Shown: positions 9,705-37,994 of the stretch, piece after piece
How the letters are laid out: the number at the start of each line of letters is the position of its first letter
How positions within the stretch are numbered: the first letter of the stretch is position 1
Source of the DNA: a virus
Virus record (IMG/VR): IMGVR_UViG_3300047564_007050
Span: 1 to 53,141 of that record
Reading direction: 5' to 3' (one strand)
Length of the DNA stretch: 53,141 nucleotides
Translations under genes and position numbers: made by a program
Notes under the pieces: model-generated
What the model was told of the DNA's origin: nothing
The model's input: the letters and a program-made list of their open reading frames with translations, nothing else
Databases searched by the model: none

Positions 9705-12599
9705 TCACTTATATTTTTGCCAGAAATATTTATCTAAGTTATAGTAATCTGTAGTTTCGTCGGAAACTTCTTCCCAAACATTTCCTTCAGAATCTACGGT
9801 ACGTTCGGGCTCATATGAATCATTTATGTATCCGAAGGGCAAAACTTCTTCCTGCATGTTTTCAATTTTTTCTTCGGCTATCTTGGCCCTAACATTTATA
9901 TTGGTAATTTCTTTAAACGGTGCTTGTGTAGTTAACCACGAAAACATAACTAGGGTCATGACCAAATCGTCATGACATCCTGGCTCGGCAGAATATGTCG
10001 TATAATTTGAGACAAATGAGGTTAGCTCAGTTATAATATTATAATCTTGAACTAATAGCTTATTAGTTTCTATAAGCTCTTTTAAATTTGCACACCCAAT
10101 TGATTTTATTTGAGTGGTCATTTTTATGCCTAATTTTGCATTTTTTCTAAACCCAGCCGAAATTCTTTGTCCACCTCGACCCATATTGGTTGTTGCAAAT
10201 ACATTTTCATATTCTAAATCTTTATGTAAAAGATCTACTACTTGAGAGCCGATGCTATTACTCTCAATTAAACAATGCGCAGAATTATATCTCAATGCAG
10301 TATTAAATATAACTGATGGAAAAACCATCGGAGATATTTTATTATTGTAGTATTTCGCAACAATTTTATACGGCACTTCAGATACATCAACAACAGTAAA
10401 TGCTGAGTAGTCTAAATTTTGACCCTCTGACGTATCAACTGAGATAACATATATATGATTTGGCTTAGGGTCTTCATACACATCTAAGCTGTCTGCTATT
10501 TTTTTAATTGGGTCAATCCAAGTTAAAGTTTTTAACTTTGTTCCTGAAATTAAAGTGTTGGTCGATCCCAAGAATTCTGTGTTAAACTCTTGGTCAAACT
10601 TTTCTTTACCTAGCTGCTTTATTTGATCTTCAGCCCATCGCTGGTCTCTGCCAGGAACAACCGACCAATGTGCCTCTATGGGTTTATATAAGTTTCTGTT
10701 ATTGATAGCATCTGTCCAGAATCTATAAAATAAATTCATTCCATTTGGAGTAGACACCATTATAACTTTAGTCGTATTACCCGAAGAAATTGTTGGATAT
10801 ACTGAAGTGATGAATTCTTCGGCGATGTTTTGTGGCACGAAGGCAAATTCATCTAAAAATATGCACTGGTGAACTAAAAAGTTATTACAATAATAACTAT
10901 GAGTATCTTCAACTTCTAATAGATCATACACATCAATTTTTTTATGGCATTCTATGTTGGTGACTTCATAAAAATAACCATCAAAATTTAATATGCTTCT
11001 ACCCAAACAATCTTTAGCTTCAATATAACCAATGTCAGTAAATAGCATGTGCTCTGAGGTGCACACAATTTCGCCAGCATCACTAGTTAATTTTATCGTG
11101 TTTTGTTTTTTGGTTTTCTTTATTCCGCAAAAGTCTTTGTATCCTTTTTCTGTGAGAACTTCGATTTTTTTAAATTCTCTTTGTGGTCTTCTGTTAAAGG
11201 TTTGCCAAGTTTTGCCTGACGCATTTTTTCTAGAACTTCTTGAGAGTATATTCCTTTCTTCCCTTTGTTCCAAGGAACACGACCCTTTGCAGCGTCGCTC
11301 ATTCTTGTTCTCGACTCTTCTGAGCGTTTCATGCCACGATGCGTCTCTGCCATTTTTCGTATCTTTTCCGGATTCTTGTTGATTTTTGCAACATGTTCTG
11401 GAGATTTCTTTAGTCCAGTTAAGCCCCTCGATATATTCTCTCGATGCCTCTGTGTCTTGGGAATTCCTCTGAGTCTTCCCAAGTTGGCCTTGGATATTTT
11501 TTCCTTTGCTGTTTGAGATAGAGTTTTTCCTAATTGAATTTCTCTTAAACAATCTCGCAAACGAGCAGATTCTCGACTGCTTACCCTGTGGTATTGTCTC
11601 GTATGAGTCATCATGGCATAGGCCCACATCATACTTGTTTTGTACTCTTCGGTTACAAATTTTGTTAAAAGTCTGTGACAAATAATGTGATGTCTTGTTG
11701 GCAAAGCAACTAAATTTTCTAAAGAATCTGAGCCGCCCATGCTTCTTGGAATCATATGATGCTTCTCTAATCTCACATTCAGATGCGAGTAGTCTTTTGT
11801 CACTATTTTCATGTATAAGTTTTTGTATTTGTTCTCTATGAACATATTGAACCTCATTACCATAATCTCGTCTTTCATATTTAGACGAATTGGCAATTAC
11901 TTTATACAATTCTTTTAGAGAAATTTCAAACTCTTCACCATCGATTTTAATCTTGGTGATGGAGTCTCCTGATACACAATTAAATGTATTACCACGAGCA
12001 GAAGATGATGCGGTGGCTGCCGCAATAACTTTGGAACCATTTTCTAATTCAATGGAACCTTTGTTCCAAATTTGAACACCTTGCTGCATCCACATAGGTA
12101 TGTGCTCATATGCAAGCCTGAGCTTTGACAATATATCTCTGGCTGTTGATGCCTTATTTGCCAATATTGCTATGTTTTGCATCGGGCCGAACAATACTGT
12201 CCAGAGAATGTATGCTATGGTTACGGTTGAGTTGTGGCTTAAAATATTGTTGGTATAGAATCTATGGTCATTTGATTCTACCGTAAGATCAAACATATTT
12301 GATGACGAGTCTAGTTTTTTCACAGACTTAATGACTTCTGCGCCATCTTTAGTCTGTATTTTTGTTAGTCCGGCAATGCAATCTTTTAGATATATTTCAT
12401 CTAAGTTAGAATCAAATAATATGTGAGTATCGGCTGCAATTAAAGATTTGCCACTATCGGTTACAACTTCCCACTTATCATACTCTATTGTTTTATGAAT
12501 GTGGGTAAGAGGTTGCCATCCAGAATCAGTTAGAATCTCGAAATCACCAGTCAATTCTATCGTATCAATAAATTTTCTTTCTACTTGTTCAGAAAGCAT
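9705..12599 (-). CDS. 17: Large terminase C-part, preceded by IntC of a split intein and interrupted by a second intein
   Basis: A 964-codon frame from ATG 12599 (GTG 12605 is an alternative). From its start it holds: (1) IntC of intein 1, ending LSHN at 12231; (2) 84 terminase residues from Ser (STVTIAYILW) to GNTFN; (3) intein 2, 10866-11978, 371 residues; (4) 386 terminase residues starting CIFLDEFAF, the Walker B with Asp-Glu. The nuclease domain then shows VDTSEGQNLDYSAF, IESNSIGS and CHDDLVM, matching the three acidic sites of T4 gp17. With the N-part the spliced protein would be about 561 residues (T4: 610). It is the ATP-driven DNA packaging motor and headful nuclease. Within 11120-11845 the same DNA also encodes an HNH endonuclease in the +1 frame. 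The middle of the intein 2 frame is hydrophilic, K/R/S/N/E-rich and unlike any intein domain. Confidence 0.95.
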   Translation of the reverse strand: MLSEQVERKFIDTIELTGDFEILTDSGWQPLTHIHKTIEYDKWEVVTDSGKSLIAADTHILFDSNLDEIYLKDCIAGLTKIQTKDGAEVIKSVKKLDSSSNMFDLTVESNDHRFYTNNILSHNSTVTIAYILWTVLFGPMQNIAILANKASTARDILSKLRLAYEHIPMWMQQGVQIWNKGSIELENGSKVIAAATASSSARGNTFNCVSGDSITKIKIDGEEFEISLKELYKVIANSSKYERRDYGNEVQYVHREQIQKLIHENSDKRLLASECEIREASYDSKKHGRLRFFRKFSCFANKTSHYLSQTFNKICNRRVQNKYDVGLCHDDSYETIPQGKQSRICSFARLFKRNSIRKNSISNSKGKNIQGQLGKTQRNSQDTEASREYIEGLNWTKEISRTCCKNQQESGKDTKNGRDASWHETLRRVENKNERRCKGSCSLEQREERNILSRSSRKNASGKTWQTFNRRPQREFKKIEVLTEKGYKDFCGIKKTKKQNTIKLTSDAGEIVCTSEHMLFTDIGYIEAKDCLGRSILNFDGYFYEVTNIECHKKIDVYDLLEVEDTHSYYCNNFLVHQCIFLDEFAFVPQNIAEEFITSVYPTISSGNTTKVIMVSTPNGMNLFYRFWTDAINNRNLYKPIEAHWSVVPGRDQRWAEDQIKQLGKEKFDQEFNTEFLGSTNTLISGTKLKTLTWIDPIKKIADSLDVYEDPKPNHIYVISVDTSEGQNLDYSAFTVVDVSEVPYKIVAKYYNNKISPMVFPSVIFNTALRYNSAHCLIESNSIGSQVVDLLHKDLEYENVFATTNMGRGGQRISAGFRKNAKLGIKMTTQIKSIGCANLKELIETNKLLVQDYNIITELTSFVSNYTTYSAEPGCHDDLVMTLVMFSWLTTQAPFKEITNINVRAKIAEEKIENMQEEVLPFGYINDSYEPERTVDSEGNVWEEVSDETTDYYNLDKYFWQKYK
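10866..11978 (-). other. Intein 2 in large terminase, at Walker B, with nested out-of-frame endonuclease
   Basis: A 371-residue intein inserted between GNTFN and CIFLDEFAF. The N-terminal core is CVSGDSITKIKIDG followed by ISLKELYKVI (about 30 residues). The C-terminal core of about 103 residues starts near EVLTEKGYKDF, has block B TSEH (Thr307, His310 of the intein), block F VYDLLEVEDTHSYY (His360) and ends LVHQ, followed by Cys+1. The C-terminal residue is Gln instead of the usual Asn, a rare but known variant that can still splice. Between the cores are about 225 residues with no intein similarity; they are the shifted-frame reading of the HNH gene at 11120-11845. No ATG or GTG lies close before the C-terminal core, so it is probably translated only as part of the continuous frame. 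Confidence 0.9.
11120..11845 (-). CDS. HNH homing endonuclease nested out of frame inside intein 2
   Basis: 241 residues in the +1 frame relative to the terminase/intein frame. The N-terminal half is an HNH domain: LEKHHMIPRSMGG, then NLVALPTRHHIICHRLL. The C-terminal half is a run of NUMOD3-type DNA-binding repeats (GKTLSQTAKEKISKANLG, GLKKSPEHVAKI, GMKRSEESRTRMSDAAKG, WNKGKKGIYSQEVLEKM, GKPLTEDHKENLKKS). I choose ATG 11845 because GAGG sits 6 bases upstream and the sequence that follows (MFIENKYKNLYMKI) is how such proteins normally begin; the frame is open further up to TTG 11896, with ATGs at 11878, 11863 and 11857. Its last 18 or so codons overlap the conserved start of the intein C-terminal core. 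It would cut intein-less terminase genes and spread intein 2. Sequence identification is firm; overlapping expression is inferred. Confidence 0.93.
   Translation of the reverse strand: MFIENKYKNLYMKIVTKDYSHLNVRLEKHHMIPRSMGGSDSLENLVALPTRHHIICHRLLTKFVTEEYKTSMMWAYAMMTHTRQYHRVSSRESARLRDCLREIQLGKTLSQTAKEKISKANLGRLRGIPKTQRHRENISRGLTGLKKSPEHVAKINKNPEKIRKMAETHRGMKRSEESRTRMSDAAKGRVPWNKGKKGIYSQEVLEKMRQAKLGKPLTEDHKENLKKSKFSQKKDTKTFAE
12231..12599 (-). other. IntC half of split intein 1
   Basis: 123 residues from ATG 12599 to Asn. It contains the second intein strand region (FEILTDSGWQPLTHIHK), block B (SLIAADTHILF, His59), and block F with MFDLTVESNDHRFY (His112), ending ILSHN with penultimate His122 and last Asn123. 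The next residue is Ser+1 of the terminase P-loop. Splitting so early in the fold gives a short IntN and a long IntC, as in the naturally split AceL-TerL intein described from an Ace Lake metagenome. Only a weak GAG Shine-Dalgarno precedes the ATG, which overlaps the end of the endonuclease gene by 19 bases, so translational coupling is likely. Confidence 0.9.
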
Positions 12600-13618
12600 A
12601 AACACTCATCTATAACTTTTTTTGGATTTTGTTTGTATTCAGATTCCCAAATTATTAAATAATCATATCCATTATCCATCGCAAACTTTTGTTTGATTAA
12701 ATCAATATTCCATTTATCTTTAGCCGACATATTTAATCTGGCGTGAAAATAGTTGGCATCATATTTTGATGGATTGCAATGCCAGTAATCACCATGATAT
12801 TCAATTATCTTATTTTTACACATCATGTCATATATCCAACTAGAGCCAACTATCGATTGTTGAGTTTTTAAATCGAAATGTTTAGCTAGTATATCTGAAA
12901 GTTCTCTTTCAGCTTTAGAGATGCATATGTCAGGATTCATTTTTTTCTGATTGATTAAAGTTTTTTCTTCTGGACTTTTTGCATCTAACGTGGCTAACCA
13001 CTTTTCTTGTCTAGCTTTCCAGATTTCAGTTCCCTTTTCTTGACCAAATTTTTTGACACATTTTTCAAGAGAAAAGGTTGACTGGCGTTTAGACAGCTCT
13101 TTTTGTGCATCTTCGTGAGAAAATCCACGCTTAATATAAAATTCCGTCGTGGTGTTTGTGTTGTGCGACTCCTTACGCTTTTTTGATATTCTCTCATGAA
13201 TTTTTGCATCTTTACCGTGAATAAATTTTTCTGAAAATGGTGAATATTTTCCTCCATGCTGATACGCTGGATTCTTATCACCTTTAATTCTTTCAGATTG
13301 CTCTTTTAGGTAAGATTCACTTCTTATTGCAGAATTTGGAAATTTTTCTTTGTACTCATCAATAGTGCAGTGCATCCGCGTGATATGAGATGTCAAGTCA
13401 TTCGATTTCATTTCACAAAGCTCACACTTAACCGCATGGATTAAATTTTTATTTTTTTCGAGTTTGGCAACTCTCATTCTTTCAAGTTGTGCTTGATATA
13501 GTTGCTCTGTTCGTTTTTTCCTACATTCATCAGAGCAGCAAGCGCTTTTCGTGCTCTTCACAAACTGCTTTGCACAAACTAAGCAATTCTTCAAATTTTG
13601 AATCTTTGCAGATTTCAT
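12581..13618 (-). CDS. Vsr-like homing endonuclease gene in the fracture of the terminase gene
   Basis: 345 residues. Near the N-terminus is a zinc-binding pattern (CLVC ... CCSDEC), then a second finger (CELC ... HITRMH). The middle carries the ERISKKRKE and QSTFSLEKCVKKFGQEKG segments common in phage endonucleases. Residues about 228-345 form a Vsr-like PD-(D/E)xK domain with Glu237 (KAERE), Asp264 (IYDM) and EYHGDYWH (Glu273, His275, Asp277), fitting the EDxHD homing endonuclease family. It overlaps the terminase-N/IntN frame by 89 bases and the IntC frame by 19 bases, in a frame different from both. Free-standing endonucleases of this family between the halves of split-intein genes were described as fractured genes (Dassa and colleagues, 2009). 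It should cut unbroken terminase alleles. Confidence 0.9.
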   Translation of the reverse strand: MKSAKIQNLKNCLVCAKQFVKSTKSACCSDECRKKRTEQLYQAQLERMRVAKLEKNKNLIHAVKCELCEMKSNDLTSHITRMHCTIDEYKEKFPNSAIRSESYLKEQSERIKGDKNPAYQHGGKYSPFSEKFIHGKDAKIHERISKKRKESHNTNTTTEFYIKRGFSHEDAQKELSKRQSTFSLEKCVKKFGQEKGTEIWKARQEKWLATLDAKSPEEKTLINQKKMNPDICISKAERELSDILAKHFDLKTQQSIVGSSWIYDMMCKNKIIEYHGDYWHCNPSKYDANYFHARLNMSAKDKWNIDLIKQKFAMDNGYDYLIIWESEYKQNPKKVIDECLCFLNK

Positions 13619-13694
13619 AAAGTTTTCCTATTTCTAAAGTTATAATATAAGTTTTTTTGTATCTTATCACAACTTTAGTATTTATGTCAACACA
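13530..13694 (-). other. IntN half of split intein 1
   Basis: 54 residues starting with Cys at codon 13694-13692, directly after Walker A Gly-Lys. Conserved core residues align with intein 2: C-V-x-x-[ND]-[TS] at the start and L-x-x-x-x-LY-[EK]-[IV] near residue 25. The last 20 or so residues are probably a tail that exists because the frame runs on into the endonuclease gene. Confidence 0.88.
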
Positions 13695-13967
13695 TTTTCC
13701 AACCTGGCGCGGAAGTTTCGCTATGGTAAATCTATGATCAATATACGACTTCAATAACTCTTTTTGAAAATCATACAAATCAAATGGCACCAAACCTTTA
13801 TCGACATGAACAATTTTCATGTACTTTTGAATGAAGTAGAGTGGATCTTGAGTGCATCTAATTCTCTCTTCTATCTGCTCTCTGGTAAAAACGTACTCAA
13901 CACCAGGAGCCTTTAAAGTAGGATTGCCTTTGTATATTCTTATTTGATTTGTTGGTATTGCATTCAT
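13530..13967 (-). CDS. 17: Large terminase N-part fused to IntN of a split intein
   Basis: 145 residues. Residues 1-91 are the N-terminus of T4-type large terminase, ending LPRQVGK, the Walker A motif up to its catalytic lysine (Lys91). Residue 92 is Cys, the first residue of IntN. The chain then ends after 54 intein-frame residues, of which the first 30 or so (CVDINTKVVI ... TLEIGKLYEIC) are recognisable core. AGTAGG precedes the ATG at 13967. On its own it cannot hydrolyse ATP because the P-loop Ser/Thr is encoded in the other half (STVTIAY after IntC), so protein trans-splicing is required for packaging. The gene follows the small terminase gene by 8 bases. The frame is the same as that of the C-part 1.4 kb downstream. 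Confidence 0.93.
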   Translation of the reverse strand: MNAIPTNQIRIYKGNPTLKAPGVEYVFTREQIEERIRCTQDPLYFIQKYMKIVHVDKGLVPFDLYDFQKELLKSYIDHRFTIAKLPRQVGKCVDINTKVVIRYKKTYIITLEIGKLYEICKDSKFEELLSLCKAVCEEHEKRLLL

Positions 13968-29727: not shown

Positions 29728-29959
29728 TTGTTAATATATCCAATATTTTATTCATAGAAGTTTCTAGAGCTGTCATTTTTTGTTCAATGTTATTTATTCT
29801 ATTTTCTACATCAAGTTCGGCTTCTCTCTTTCTTTTAGCCAATTCTTTATTCTTTTTATGTAAAGAATATGCAGTATTGTCAATGTTTATTACGCCATTG
29901 CTATTGGCATCTCTAACGATTGAATTTGTATCTTCAAATTTTAAATATCTATTACTCAT
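29714..29959 (-). CDS. Small coiled-coil protein
   Basis: 81 residues. The N-terminal half starts [20 protein letters not shown]; the C-terminal half is predicted coiled coil ([20 protein letters not shown] then [20 protein letters not shown]). It overlaps both neighbours (8 bases with the DUF4815 gene, 14 bases with the next), which indicates one translational unit. Such a peptide might trimerise and clamp the neighbouring fibre connector. I know no named family for it. Confidence 0.75.
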
Positions 29960-32900
29960 CTAACGCAATCATTCTAAAATTCATAACTCTTGGTGCTCTA
30001 GCCGGATTACCACCACGCATAACCAGTTTTGCCTGAACCGCCACAAATGATGGAAGGTCACTCAATATCGAAGAATACTCTGAAAAATCACCAGAGAATA
30101 AATTCGGTGCTGGAGTAGCTGGCGAAATAGTTCCATTTATATCAATATTAAATTCGGCTTTTGTCCAGTTAATGGTGTCCATTGCCTGAATTGAATTTTC
30201 CGGCTTTAATTTATAATATAACTCAAATTCACAAGTTGGGTCTCTTGAACCATCAAACATAATTTTTAGTGCATTTGATGGTCTGCTTAGAGATAATGTT
30301 TTAGTTACATATTTAGAACTGCAACTTCCATTAGTTGGAGATATTTCATCAATATATCTGTCTAATTGAATTATTGTTACTGCGCTTACATTTTCACTTC
30401 TATAGTAGCCACCACCAGATACAGAAACCAATGGCGCAGCAGTTAGATTTAAAGATATGTCTGATGCTCTACTAGCTACAGTTCCTATCAACTGACCAGA
30501 AGAATTGTATAGCTGAAGCCCAACAAAAGCTGTGGTGAATGTGGTGCCAACTCCAGTTACGGTAAATGGACTAGTTGCAGTTGTTGTAATTGTACCAGCT
30601 TCTAAATTGGCCGCAGGATTATATAAAGTCTTAAAATCAATTTCAACTTCAATATATTTTGGAGACCCTAAATCAGAATCTACAACTGTATTATTTGGCG
30701 TATAACTAACTTTTAAAACTCTAGCTTTATCGGCTTCAGTTATATTTCTAGTTAATGCTCCATTAGATTTTGCACCAGAAATTTTTATATATTTTCCTAC
30801 ATCTAAATTGCTTAAATGCTTCGCAACAGATGCATTACCCGATTTTATTATTGTATTTCTAGGATTTATATATAATTTAGTTCCTGGAGTAGCACTAAGT
30901 GAAATATCAACTAAAAATTCAGTATCACTAATTACACTAGTAACTCGTCTGGTGTCATTCTGATCTGTTTTAACAATATCTCCGACACGAAGTTCAGATA
31001 AGAATTTAGTACCTGTTCCGGTTATTCTAGTGCTTTTAGCGGTGCCAGAAATATCTCCGGTTGCGGTTGGACTAGAATAAGAAAAGTGTATTGAGCCTGT
31101 AGTGGCCGCAGGAGCAATAGATGTCGGTACAACCTGATAGTCATCATATGCCGCATTTATTATAGATGCGTCAAGTAAAGGATCGCCAATTCCTTTAGGA
31201 TTATCTAGTCGATGAGATGCCAAATATGCGGTCATTCTAGACTCATCAATAACTGGCGATACATCTGAATTAGAACTCTTCAACACCGCTCTGATATTAA
31301 GAGATTTTCTATCTCCAATTTCAATCTCAGAAATTACGGTTGATGGACCACTAATAGCTTGATTTGTCGGATCAGTTGTACTTCCAGAAGGTGGAAGTTC
31401 ATTAATATAAGACCCAATGAGCATTGGATCATTAAATATTAATCTCTCATTCGGCAAAAATTCTACAGGATTTGTATATACATATTTTCCGTTAATCTCA
31501 ACTTTACTAGGAAATTTTATATATGTAGATGTTGTAGAATCATGAACGCCGCAACCGCTGGTTGTTTGCGCATACCAAGTTATAGAAGTATCTTGCACTT
31601 CTAGCGGAGTTGTGATCAACGTCATTTCCTCAAATCGCTTATTTTCGGTAGCTAAAATTCTGCTACCACCATATTTTCCTGAAACGATTGATGAGTTGTT
31701 GAAGCTGGCACTTCTTTGCTTTAAATCAATAATATAATAATCTAATTCAGTTCTCTTAATGTCATAGCCACGATAATCATAGAACAACTCAGCATCTATA
31801 ACGCCACCAAAATTTGCGCCAGTTGGAACGCCATACGTTGTACCTAAAAACCCAGAAAGCCCAGTAAAATCTGTATTAAATTTAGATGCAATAGTCAAAG
31901 AAGTTGAGCCTGGTGTGCCAACGACTCTTTTTTGTTCTCCGGTTATTGGATGTCTAATAAAACTATTTTCAACCAACCCAGCAAAAGTTCCTCCAGTTAT
32001 AGTCACAGAAGTTAGATTTGCGCTAACCAAGCCAGAAATTGTCAAATCATACACTGGAGAAAATACAACTTTACTCGATAGACCAATCGCAGGACTAACT
32101 CTAGCCGTCGTGTGTCCGTGATTTGGATGTAAAATTCTAACTTCTGATGATCCATTAACAAATTCAACTGGATCTGAAGTTAACAATTTAAAATCCAACT
32201 CATCATTTACATAATCTATTTCTGCACTGATAGAAGTGTCAAATTGAGCTTTCCAGATCTTGAACTTAATCGTGTCATTTTCCAATTCAATCCAGTTAAA
32301 TCCGTTTTGAGATTTAAAAAATGCTCCTTCTATAAACTTTTCAGTTATAGTTTTGTCAGTGGTGCCAATTTCAACGCTGGCCTCTCGATCTTCTTCTTTT
32401 TTAGTTAAGTCAGGACCAAATTTAGAATACCAAACATAATATTCATCGCTGTCTGATGTTAACACAAAGCAATAATACTTTTCTCCTCGCAAATATAGTG
32501 GCGATTCAAAAGTAAATCTTGTGGGCACCATTTGAGATGTGGCTTCTCCTAAATGTTCAAACTCTGACCCATTTGAGCGAGCTGATGTCGAGCTATAAAT
32601 ATTTACCGGTGAAGCTGCACTAAGTGTTGCCGGAGCATTAGATTTCAGTGTGATCTGAGTCGGACTATCAACAACATCAACAATTCCTATAAATCTGTCG
32701 TTCACATACAAAGAAGAACCAGGAGGAGTTGCTGTTACACTAAAGCTAGTTCCGGTGCCAGTAATGATCTTAGATGATATGCTTGAGCTTATTGTTCCGG
32801 ATAATAGAGTTTTACCCACAGCAACGCCATTTATCCAAGGTCCGGTTGTTGCTGGCACTGCTGGTATTGTTGAGTCTTGACCCAAATTTCCGGTTATTGT

Positions 32901-35900
32901 CATTTTAGCCGGACCAACGCTATTTACCACAACTTCTGGCATTTCTTTTAGAACCACGCTCATTGGCAAGATTCTAACTGATGGTAAACCTTGGTCTCCC
33001 ATCTCTCTAACCTCTAGAGAAACTGGAGGTTGAAAATCACCAGTTGGTTTTTTGCTAAAAAATACATCGACCGAGGTAATAAAACATCCGGCCTTCTCAT
33101 ACACATAAAAACTTTGTGCCAAAGGATCTCTAGGACAAGGATCGGTGTATGATAAAACATTTGATGTTACAATAGAAATATCTTTGGCGCTTTCTACTTT
33201 ATTCTGCGCAATCGTAAATAGTCTAGTTGAGTAGGTTGTTTCTTGCTTAGTGTCAATCCAGCCTCTAGCTGTGTATTTAACTTGACCAGCAGATTCTGGA
33301 GATGGATCTAAAATATTACCTGAGCTTGTGGTCAATCTAAAAAATCTATCTCCGGTTTTAAATCGTATTGTGCTATTATTTGGTATTGTAAATATACCTT
33401 CAATCCTACCACGACCGTCACAAATTAAAGGATCATTATTTTGGCCATAAACGCCAGTAGTTAAATTTTTTGGTCTACAATATGCAGAAACATCTACGCC
33501 ATCAAAAAACGGATAAACCCTAGTTCCTGGTTTAAATGTTTTTCCTTTGAATTCAATATCTCTAGAGCGAATGTACTCAATTAATGATGTATCTATGACC
33601 CTACTTCCCATTGATATTGGAGCAGAAAAGCCCAAATCTTGAAATGTGGATGTGAATGATGTCGTTATTTCTTGACCACTCATTGTTGTGGTTGTTCTTA
33701 GTTCATCTGCAATAAATGTTTTTGTGCCAACTCGAACTTCAGCGCCAGAATTAACATAACCAGCAGGAGCAGGCAATGTCGCTTCATTTTGCTTCATTTT
33801 TTTCCATTGCTGGTTGCTCTTTCCGTACATGTCTTTAAATTCAGACCTGCCGAGCTGCACTATTTTTTGTCTACCTGTAGGTTCAGTAGTTGTAGAACTA
33901 GAAATCCAGTTATTGAATGTTGTTTGGTAATCTACTTTTGTGCCACTAACGCCGTAGGTATTTCTAGTGGCGTTCCAGAGAGATGAATCTTGAACGTTTA
34001 ATGGTTCTGCATATTTTACCTCTCGCCACTCATCTGTCCAGGGGGTTATCGATACATTTCCAAGATAAACTGGAACATTTGATGGATTAACACTTATTGA
34101 ATTGCTCGCCTTTGTCTGCGATTTCATTTCAACATTAGAATATGGCAAAGTATATAATTGTCCAGTTTTTTGATAGTTGTTATTTGCCCTATAATTATCA
34201 ATTGCGTTATCTCCGGTCTGTAAAAGTGCCTTTTCAGATAAGTGAACGGCATCTTCATATATAATCGGACGCATAACGCCTAAAGTTCTGTCTAAGCTAC
34301 ACAGATAATCAGATGAACCAAGATCGCTAGATGTAAAAGATTTAAAGTTATCAACTAAAAATCCATTTTTAAATCTATCGAATCCGGCAGCATCTTGAAT
34401 TTTTAATGCACTAGTGTCTTTCTCTAATAGCGAAAGTGTTGTGTAATACTCAAGATTTTTTATTCTCGCCTCTAATTTTCCAATATCACGCATTGTGTAG
34501 CGCTTATTATCTCGCATTCTTGGAAAAATATTTTTAGGCGATCCTGTATATGGCTGCAACTCTAGCTCATATAAAGTCATTCCGTTATCTGGATCATCTG
34601 GAAAAAATGCCTCTTCATTAGGACTTCCAGATTTAATTGAAAATTCTCCTAGATAATTCAAAATTAGTTTATCTTTTCTAGGCAAATAGAAGTGATAATC
34701 ACAGGTGAAATTTGTTTTTGGTATGCCCAATGAAGTTGCAAATGTAGAATTGATTCCTCCTGCGCCAACAATCGGCCTAAAATCAAGACAGTCTGAGAGT
34801 GAATAAGATGTGCCATCTGATGCAACATACTCAGGAATTTCTGAGTAGTCCATAGATGGAGTAGCACCGGAAAAAGGATAAGAATTTACTGAAAAGTAGT
34901 CTCCGGTTGTTGTGTTATGTGTAAAATAGTCAAACTCAACTCGCACCTGCCCTCTTGGTCTTTCTACACCAGGTCGCAGAGTAACCTTTGCTATGTCGTA
35001 GTAATAGTCACGCTGGCCATTATCTAATATATAAAGTCCAGTTATATCTTTATGTCCCGACGGAAGAGTCTCAAGAGTACTTGGGGCAGTAGAGTAAGAT
35101 GGACTTTCAACTATTCGTGTAAGTCTAAGAACATCTGGCTTACCCAAGCTAATTTCATTCACGTCAGCGCCAGAACTTACCGCAAATCCATCGCCCTGAT
35201 ATGTTCCTCCACTAAATGAGCCCTTTATTAGAGTTTTAATTCTCTCTTTAGATGCTGCTCCACTCGGAGTTGACTCCAACCCACCACTCTTTCGTATGAT
35301 AGAATGAATTTGAAATGTTCCAGTAGTTCCTGACGGAAGAGTTATCTGCAAACTTGATGGTTGAGCATTAACAAAACAAGTTCCGGCGGCAGGACTACCC
35401 CCAGAAGCGGGCAATACCTGAAGCCACTGAGAAGTGCTTTCATTTATTACAGCATAATTAGAAATAGAAAAATTTTCAAACTCTGTTCCAGTTTCAGGGC
35501 TCAGTGATAATACATTGCTAGTCGGAGAAATGCCAAAGTCTGTTTTCCGTACAGTATACTTAGCATCTATCATTGTACCATCAGGTGAACCGTCTGATGT
35601 AGCTCCCCTTAATGTAGATACAAATTCATCTGGCAATTTATACAATAGACCCGCATTTGCAGAATTTGTTCTTAGTGTTGCATATAGATAATCTATATTT
35701 GAACCATCTGGCCAAGAAGATCCTCCAACCGATGATGACAATTTCAATATTGTATCGGCGCTAGGATTTTCGGCAACCTTATAAATCGCAGATGTTGCTT
35801 GTCCAGAATTTATTTCTACATAATCCCCGGCAGATAAAATTTCTTGAGGGTCATTTCTCCACACCGTTCCAGCGCCAACGATAATTGTATTATCTGATCC

Positions 35901-37994
35901 CTGCGCAAGACTAAATGTCAATGTTGTGGCACTTGAGGTTGTTGTTGCATTTGCACTAAGAGTTATTTGAGTTAAACTTCCAGAAGTAATAGAAAGAATT
36001 GTTGCAAATGGAGAAGTTTCCCCCTGTGCAGTAACCGACATTCCCACCCTAAGATTTGAGTAGGTGGTGGTGCCTGTGATTGTGGTAGACGCCGCAGAAG
36101 ATGACGTTGAGAGGTTGTATGTGCCGGTTCCTCCTGTTCCTGTGCCCAATGATGTTATAGTAGTTCCGGTAGTAACATTTGCGCCACTAATAGCTGTGCC
36201 CACTGCCAAAAACCCAGAAGTGACTGCACTTACGGTCAATACTGTTCCAGATATAGATCCTGTAACAACCGCAGTTGTTATTCCAGCCGATATATTTCCA
36301 GAAACTATATTTACGGTTGCACTTCCCGATGTGGTTGAACAGGTTCTAGTTGTAGAAGTTACTGACCGAGAAACAGACCCAGTGAGCCTATAGCGGTCAA
36401 GACGAACATCACATGTAAATGTCGGAGCATTTGAATATACTGATTTAACTTTTTCAAACTTGGTGTCACCAATCATTTCTATATTAAATAAAAATAATTG
36501 ATAAACTCGATTATCTACAGTTGTGCCGCTTTCTTTGAAACCACTATAAAAATCTACGGCAAGAACTCTTGCAGTTCCTATTTTTGTTCCAGATTGAGTT
36601 CCCGGAATTGATATTGGTTGGTCATACAAATCTACCGTGTCATAAGTTTCTGGCCTAAGTGCACCATACATATTTTGCACAAATATGTACGTGCCCAACG
36701 GAGTATCTGTTGTCTTATTGTTTCTATACTTTGTCGTTCTTGCTTTCTTAAAATCAACTATTGCGGTAGATGCCTTTTCAATTCTATAGCCTTTGACGTA
36801 TGCTCTGCCAGGATCAACTATTATGCTAAGACGCTCTCTACACAGTCTAAAAAATTCATCTGAGGTGTTTCCCGGAACCCACCCACCAGCATATGTTGCT
36901 GCCGCAGGAACCTCTAGCCCAAAAATTTCAGTTGATGCAAGCTCGGCTTCTGCTTGAGTTGAATATATAAATTCAGATATGTTGTGACCACCATTTGCGC
37001 CACCTTCACTGAGAAAATTTTTAATCTGAATTTGAAATGGTATTACAGTATAGTCTCCAGACTCATCATATGTTCTGGTAGCCAAAGTCTTATCTAATTC
37101 ACTGTATCGTGTTTCAGGAACACGAAGCCTAACGTTACCATCAATTATTTTGACAAGCTCTACAAAATTTTCTTCTTCAGCATTCAAGTCTAGCTGCATG
37201 GCCTGAGCATCAATGTGAAGTCGATCTGCTCCGGGTCCACCAATATTGGGTGTTCCGGTAGCATTGTCTAAAAGAGAATTATCATCTGTCCAAGAAATGA
37301 CACTTTCAATAAACTTTAAGCCAATTTTAGCTGTTGGTCTAACATTCCATGCCGATGGAGTGGCAATATCAGATTCAATTGGAGTTATAAAAACTGTTTG
37401 CTCATCAACTAAAACGAATCTTCCTCTGTAAAAATAAACTCCAGACTCAATTTTTACCGACTGTACGGCTCCTACAGAAAATTGTGCTGTTGATATATTG
37501 GCATTTAAAACTAATGCCGGATTTGTTTCAACCGTTGAAACAACCTGACCTTCAGAAAACCTCTGTTGAAGCCCTGTGGTATCTGCTATTGTGTATGTTA
37601 AGAATAATCTGACTAACCCGGCAGAATTTATTGGCTTATATCCAATAACAACAGCAGAAATTCCATTTACGCTTTTAATGGTTTTTCCGATCCAGTAAGT
37701 CTCAATTTCAGCATTTGAAGATGTTTTAGCTGCGCCAGAGCTTTCAACTAAAATAAAGCCAGCGGCATTATTAATCTTTACTGCTTCTCCTTTCTGGGAA
37801 AAATTTAATACCAAAGATCCATCTTGAAAAATATGTTTTCCAAAACGATTAATTTGATTTTGAAGTTGCGTCTGAATCTGATTTAGCTCTCTAGCCTGTA
37901 CCGCTCTTCCAGGACGAAAAAGTATTTGATAGAATTTTTTATTCTCAGAAAAATCATCGAAGTACGGAGATTGATTCAGATTTACAGTTGTCAT
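29952..37994 (-). CDS. Giant DUF4815-type baseplate or fibre protein
   Basis: 2680 residues. The first several hundred residues match the DUF4815 family of T4-like environmental phages: [20 protein letters not shown], then [20 protein letters not shown] and [20 protein letters not shown]. After about residue 520 comes low-complexity Thr/Ser/Gly sequence ([19 protein letters not shown]). Several copies of a small beta-domain (TGTGTxF ... VGDIV ... [10 protein letters not shown]) lie towards the C-terminus. The gene directly follows gp8 and precedes the fibre genes, where T4 has genes 9-12, so it probably forms the baseplate periphery and fibre attachment, perhaps replacing gp10 in role. There is no stop or frameshift inside. 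The exact role is not established for the family. Confidence 0.88.

Follow-up and report, generated by a model that had tools for sequence, protein, structure and literature searches.

A contiguous phage terminase intein that very probably carries its homing endonuclease as an overlapping gene in another reading frame

The terminase locus

The stretch of DNA analysed here (the window) is a 53-kb virus record from IMG/VR, IMGVR_UViG_3300047564_007050 (53,141 nucleotides), judged from the relatives of its large terminase to belong to a T4-like myovirus. The large terminase gene (TerL, gp17), encoded on the minus strand, carries two interruptions. Intein 1, a naturally split intein, interrupts the Walker A motif (12231-13694, minus strand), and intein 2, the subject of this work, is positioned directly before the Walker B motif (N/C...HQ/CIFLDEF). 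An initial annotation of the DNA had described intein 2 as a stretch of the terminase (host) frame that also encodes, in the +1 frame, a complete HNH/NUMOD3 endonuclease. The coordinates assigned to both elements are exact (Table 1), and the host frame is open across all 371 codons of intein 2, with zero stops.

Table 1. Features of the terminase gene and its two inteins in the window
Feature	Position	Strand	Basis or remark
TerL N-extein up to Walker A motif (RQVGK/S)	13695..13967	-	tblastn against intein-less relatives
Intein 1 N-half, split intein, internal control	13533..13694	-	host frame ends at 13530
Intein 1 endonuclease open reading frame (ORF), weak MTES/VSR-like match	12581..13618	-	+1 frame, 42 host-frame stops; control
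Intein 1 C-half and start of C-terminal TerL ORF	12231..12605	-	host frame resumes near 12605
TerL extein separating inteins 1 and 2	11979..12230	-	tblastn against intein-less relatives
Intein 2, 371 codons	10866..11978	-	no stop anywhere in TerL frame
Intein 2 splicing domain, N-terminal part (residues 1-31, block A, Cys1)	11886..11978	-	AlphaFold2 confidence (pLDDT) about 80-91
Host-frame spacer (residues 32-268), predicted disordered	11175..11885	-	constraint mainly against stops
Intein 2 splicing domain, C-terminal part (residues 269-371; blocks B, F, G)	10866..11174	-	ends HQ before +1 Cys
HNH/NUMOD3 homing endonuclease gene, including stop codon	11120..11845	-	+1 frame relative to TerL
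GAGGT, putative ribosome binding site of HNH gene	11851..11855	-	
HNH tail over conserved intein strand EVLTEKGYKDF, intein-constrained	11120..11174	-	substitution pattern flip and alignment
TerL C-extein, +1 Cys (CIFLDEF, Walker B) to stop	9705..10865	-	tblastn against intein-less relatives

Intein 2 as a splicing element

The identification of the insert as an intein is upheld by its splicing motifs, by a predicted Hint fold and by the precisely empty sites of close relatives. The product of the host frame contains Cys1, a block B TxxH motif (TSEH), a penultimate His, a terminal Gln and a +1 Cys, and thus the set of motifs by which inteins are recognized, ending HQ/C in the window. Insertion at both TerL sites is precise, because four relatives (L046-L049), which are 77-92% identical to the window over most of TerL, lack both inserts. 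A profile of 14 intein 2 homologues searched against the PDB matches the Spl DnaX mini-intein at 7e-15 and CatC, the consensus atypical TerL intein, at 3e-14. In the AlphaFold2 model residues 1-31 and 269-371 have a pLDDT of mostly 80-95, while residues 32-268 are predicted to be disordered; Foldseek searches with this model return gp41-1 (3e-8) and VidaL (7e-7), as well as the NrdJ-1 and Cat inteins. The two ends of intein 2 can thus be predicted with confidence to form a Hint splicing fold. No Pfam endonuclease is found in the host-frame middle of the element, and a functional in-frame domain there is disfavoured by the predicted disorder and by the nearly free third positions of the HNH codons. 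A group I or group II intron with an endonuclease ORF was ruled out, as no Rfam intron match was obtained even at E values up to 1.

Open host frames that cover an out-of-frame HNH gene are known outside inteins, in the ShiLan domain and the Pacc40 insertion of phage DNA methylases (Arsenault, Gosselin, and Gogarten, 2025, PMC11855218). These resemble intein 2 in having a complete HNH gene in another frame, a stop-free host frame and evidence of horizontal movement; unlike intein 2, they have no splicing domain or predicted splicing, the insert is thought to be retained, and no ribosome binding site is present (PMC11855218). The features that define such insertions are found in intein 2 as far as the out-of-frame HNH and the open frame are concerned, but a splicing domain is present. 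That intein 2 might likewise be a retained, unspliced insertion, tolerated as a loop in the terminase, has the precedent of ShiLan in its favour, but the full set of splicing motifs, the predicted Hint fold and the kinship to active TerL inteins speak for removal, and an insert of 371 amino acids in the Walker B region of an ATPase would likely be harmful if kept. Retention is accordingly very unlikely.

The nested endonuclease gene and its expression

The +1-frame ORF comprises 241 codons and a stop, and, as the initial annotation had proposed, its product is a complete HNH/NUMOD3 protein, with both Pfam domains above their cut-offs (HNH, 22.6 bits against 21.4; NUMOD3, 32.6 bits against 20.4). 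Its model has a pLDDT of 90-96 across about the first 80 residues, and the histidines and asparagine of the HNH motif are conserved, together with the NUMOD3 region, among 16 aligned members. Relatives of the protein were not found in a search of bacterial genome contigs. Among the best matches listed in a search of cultured phages with the HNH proteins of the window and of the homologous locus L142, most are annotated as free-standing or mobD-like endonucleases and none lies in TerL.

Expression of the nested gene from its own start is suggested by the GAGG reported 6 nucleotides ahead of its ATG, which is indeed present and forms part of a GAGGT comparable with those of other genes in the window. 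Alternatively, the HNH protein could arise without an internal start, fused to TerL and the N-terminal part of the intein through a +1 ribosomal frameshift. The HNH frame is in fact open for several codons ahead of the ATG in the window and in some homologues; in three others (L136 and L144/L145), however, an HNH-frame stop immediately precedes the start codon or codons, which favours internal initiation over a frameshift fusion there, and the start codon is conserved and in the window is preceded by GAGGT. Frameshifting is therefore an improbable route. As several homologues have no clear Shine-Dalgarno sequence, the mode of HNH initiation may differ by host.

Selection for an open host frame

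The probability that the host frame is open by chance was calculated with the HNH protein fixed and its codons redrawn either from phage usage or from the usage of the HNH gene itself. With phage codon usage 22.5 host-frame stops are expected, against 0 observed (P = 1.3e-13), and with the gene's own usage the open frame still has P = 5e-9. The figure of about 6e-6 proposed at first was thus too generous to chance. When 16 nested loci, drawn from the homologues described below, are tested one by one with TerL codon usage, P ranges from about 1e-11 to 4e-25. A host-frame stop is possible only where an HNH codon ending in T precedes a codon starting with AA, AG or GA. In the window T-ending codons occupy none of the 58 sites where they would create a stop, compared with 53 of 110 harmless sites; pooled over 28 loci, the counts are 0/1524 and 1427/3053. 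The endonuclease of intein 1 provides a control within the same gene and in the same relative frame, and here T is found at 42 of 85 stop-creating and 72 of 148 harmless sites, leaving 42 stops. Sixteen endonucleases of split relatives likewise show no stop avoidance. The nested HNH belongs to the same family as the free-standing HNH/NUMOD3 (MobD-like) endonucleases of T4-like phages, with about 30-36% identity. In the related loci that were checked, in contrast to intein 2, the corresponding frame has no long open stretch: at 41 related HNH loci elsewhere, at most 47 open codons overlap the ORF in that relative frame. The openness of the host frame is thus selected. A chance open frame is ruled out by the codon-resampling nulls, the homologues and the controls, and an assembly error by the occurrence of the nested architecture in 28 distinct contigs.

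These results bear most directly on the reading of intein 2 as a split intein with a free-standing endonuclease, like intein 1 and AceL-TerL, in which the C-terminal half would have its own start, splicing would occur in trans and the open frame would be accidental. In favour of this reading, intein 1 itself is split, as are 28 related loci at the intein 2 site, and known split inteins of TerL break at a similar loop. An accidental open frame is nevertheless hard to reconcile with the probabilities calculated per locus, with the lack of any T at stop-creating sites over 28 loci or with the indifference to stops among the split relatives, and inspection by eye revealed no convincing start codon for a separate C-terminal half close upstream in the host frame. 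This arrangement can hardly be expected to apply.

The choice of frame may itself be explained by the stops that synonymous codons can avoid. With each of the 28 HNH proteins, selecting among synonymous codons is enough to clear every stop from the host frame, whereas the other sense frame would retain 2-9 unavoidable stops, and the clade may share its +1 relation because every host-frame stop is synonymously avoidable there.

Homologues at the same site and the selection on each frame

The search of metagenomes for homologues that had been proposed as a check was made with the intein, the HNH protein and the extein as queries, and it yielded 27 additional, distinct phage contigs in which this architecture occupies the TerL site of intein 2. 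Loci with a recognizable following extein comprise 28 nested-open inteins (the window included), 28 split inteins and 9 mini-inteins. Homologues with a freely broken terminase frame had been named as evidence that would count against dual coding; in all 28 nested loci the host frame is without a stop across the HNH gene, at HNH identities down to 35%. Broken host frames occur only in related split inteins, the endonucleases of which show no avoidance of stops. In a tree of the inteins, built on only 101 columns, all 28 nested inteins group with 6 mini-inteins and 4 split inteins (support 98/90), and the nested inteins do not form an exclusive clade (approximately unbiased test, p = 0.0002).

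The number of differences per codon in the HNH body is.25 at the first,.18 at the second and.45 at the third position, and ordinary purifying selection acts on the HNH protein. Four-fold synonymous sites differ at a rate of.50 in the HNH gene (harmless sites), compared with.61 in TerL and the C-terminal intein part (IntC); the host amino-acid sequence over the HNH body is therefore at most weakly constrained. The pattern changes in the HNH tail after PWNKG, over conserved intein strands, where the values are.30,.37 and.35 and the host wobble position is the fastest. Of the roughly 240 codons initially described as dual-coding, all are read in both frames, but only about the last 20 are constrained by the intein at the protein level. 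Over the body of the HNH gene, the retained host frame serves almost solely as a stop-free spacer.

Mobility and endonuclease loss

Several pairs of homologues share intein DNA that is far more similar than the terminase genes around it. The inteins of L142 and L223 are 97.2% identical within flanking TerL of 74% and 78% identity, those of L222 and L223 are 97.9% identical with flanks of 74/80%, and those of L133 and L134 are 94.1% identical with an N-side flank of 78%. As read from these sequence comparisons, the difference between intein and flank is the signature of recent homing in relatives of the window element. Loss of the endonuclease is also apparent, as L295 has most of the HNH gene deleted in frame with a 3' remnant left, and the mini-intein of L148 retains a 5' HNH remnant. 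Such mini-inteins with in-frame HNH loss indicate that the host frame is needed by the phage and that the HNH gene is dispensable. The mini-inteins of L314 and L315 also resemble in-frame HNH remnants.

The tolerance of HNH loss within the clade would fit an HNH gene that is a decaying pseudogene, with only the host frame of importance. This is extremely unlikely given the conserved HNH motif residues and NUMOD3 region of the 16 aligned members, the codon-position pattern of purifying selection and the recent spread between diverged phages.

Proposed mechanism

Intein 2 is very probably a contiguous, cis-splicing mobile intein at the TerL Walker B site, with a homing endonuclease encoded not as a domain in the intein frame but by an overlapping gene of its own. 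Computed support comes from the selection for openness, HNH conservation, the homing signature, the Hint fold, the empty sites and the HNH-loss derivatives that keep the host frame; we infer actual splicing, internal initiation and cleavage specificity. Ribosomes in the terminase frame would read through the HNH region and so extend the loop that links blocks A and B by a long, disordered spacer. Both ends of the intein would then fold as a Hint domain, excise the entire 371-amino-acid insert and join the terminase. Other ribosomes would initiate at the internal ATG at 11845 to make the HNH endonuclease, which would cleave TerL genes that lack the intein and so cause the element to be copied into them.

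Three observations weigh against this interpretation. The insertion of an HNH gene should introduce about 20 host-frame stops, for whose removal the proposed mechanism does not account. The splicing domain terminates in Gln instead of the usual Asn, and several homologues have no recognizable Shine-Dalgarno sequence before the HNH gene.

Relation to known inteins

The endonuclease of an intein is usually conceived either as a domain in the intein's own frame or as a gene that separates two split halves. Intein 2 shares with canonical full-length inteins a single open frame, the combination of splicing and endonuclease coding in one element, and homing. It cannot be classed with them, as its endonuclease is a gene of its own in the +1 frame, placed between blocks A and B and not after block B. 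With the atypical split inteins of phage TerL (AceL-TerL, GOS-TerL and Cat) it shares a related Hint domain, a short N-terminal intein part (IntN; 25-37 amino acids in AceL-TerL and GOS-TerL) and a break or insertion between blocks A and B. In these split inteins and in fractured genes, the latter reportedly described by Dassa in 2009, the endonuclease gene lies between the halves, as in intein 1; intein 2 differs from them in that its two halves share a single open frame from which selection excludes stops.

The open-access literature searched yielded no account of a contiguous intein that contains an out-of-frame endonuclease. The initial annotation knew of no intein of this kind, and its claim of novelty holds to that extent, though not for the combination of an out-of-frame HNH and an open frame as such, given ShiLan (PMC11855218). 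The arrangement appears to be previously undescribed for inteins. An overlapping gene that lies out of frame beneath an uninterrupted intein frame would represent a third state and be a candidate for an intermediate that links contiguous to split inteins; here the coding space of one gene is occupied by another, and the endonuclease can be expressed apart from the splicing domain. Because the long frame is usually the only one retained in annotation, hidden endonucleases are missed. The naturally occurring disordered insert, about 230 amino acids in length, also marks an intein loop tolerant of large cargo.

Hidden endonucleases at other sites and in cultured phages

The nested design also occurs at the first TerL site, with HNH genes in L175 (P = 3e-19) and L260 (6e-14). 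The nested endonuclease of L151 resembles the ORF of intein 1 in the window (P = 5e-17), so that L151 mirrors the window, with site 1 nested and site 2 split. In both L151 and L152 the site 1 endonuclease is related to that of the window's intein 1 and the host frame is open. Other intein families with a hidden endonuclease include those of three terminases (L326, L331 and L332) and a Clostridia helicase (L343), in all of which it is placed after block B, the usual endonuclease position.

Four cultured phages have the nested design as well, in the terminases of Gordonia phage Clown (L352; GC-rich, P = 4e-4) and Synechococcus phage S-EIVl (L353; P = 8e-15) and in the helicases of Vibrio phages CP-T1 (L354; P = 6e-11) and 1.194.O (L355; P = 3e-11). 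T occurs at 0/53, 0/56, 0/47 and 0/54 stop-creating sites, respectively. Their hidden +1-frame ORFs encode HNH or DUF559/VSR-like endonucleases, and in the host frame Pfam Intein_splicing scores above its cut-off in Clown, S-EIVl and CP-T1, with PT-HINT and Hint_2 in 1.194.O. Each locus is labelled as one gene in GenBank. That these phages are cultured makes splicing, expression and homing testable.

Inteins with hidden endonucleases probably constitute a widespread, overlooked class of contiguous inteins in phage terminases and in phage and bacterial helicases, in which unrelated endonucleases (HNH-NUMOD3, zinc-ribbon HNH and VSR/DUF559-like) are encoded as overlapping +1-frame genes and the intein frame serves mainly as a stop-free spacer. 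On this view, members of the class would yield mini-inteins by loss of the homing endonuclease and might change into split inteins and back, and the +1 relation would recur because stops are synonymously avoidable in it.

In three bacterial metagenome-assembled genomes (L343, L344 and L346) the intein of a helicase occupies the DEAH-box site and contains a hidden VSR/DUF559-like ORF in the +1 frame; stop avoidance is strong only in the AT-rich L343, and the stop test by itself does not reach significance for the GC-rich L344 and L346. Within long outer ORFs of a Clostridium and an Acidobacteria metagenome-assembled genome, hidden HNH_3 ORFs lie in the +2 frame (L333, 2008-2685 and 3385-4059; L336, 3496-4017). 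The TerL of Campylobacter phage CP21 (L050) has three intein sites, of which site 1 is contiguous and site 2 is split by a GIY-YIG-like ORF; the third intein, three residues past site 2, is a mini-intein. The C-terminal coding part of this TerL is under-annotated in GenBank. Elsewhere in the window, a single minus-strand ORF of 2680 amino acids (29952-37994) is unusually large for its region.

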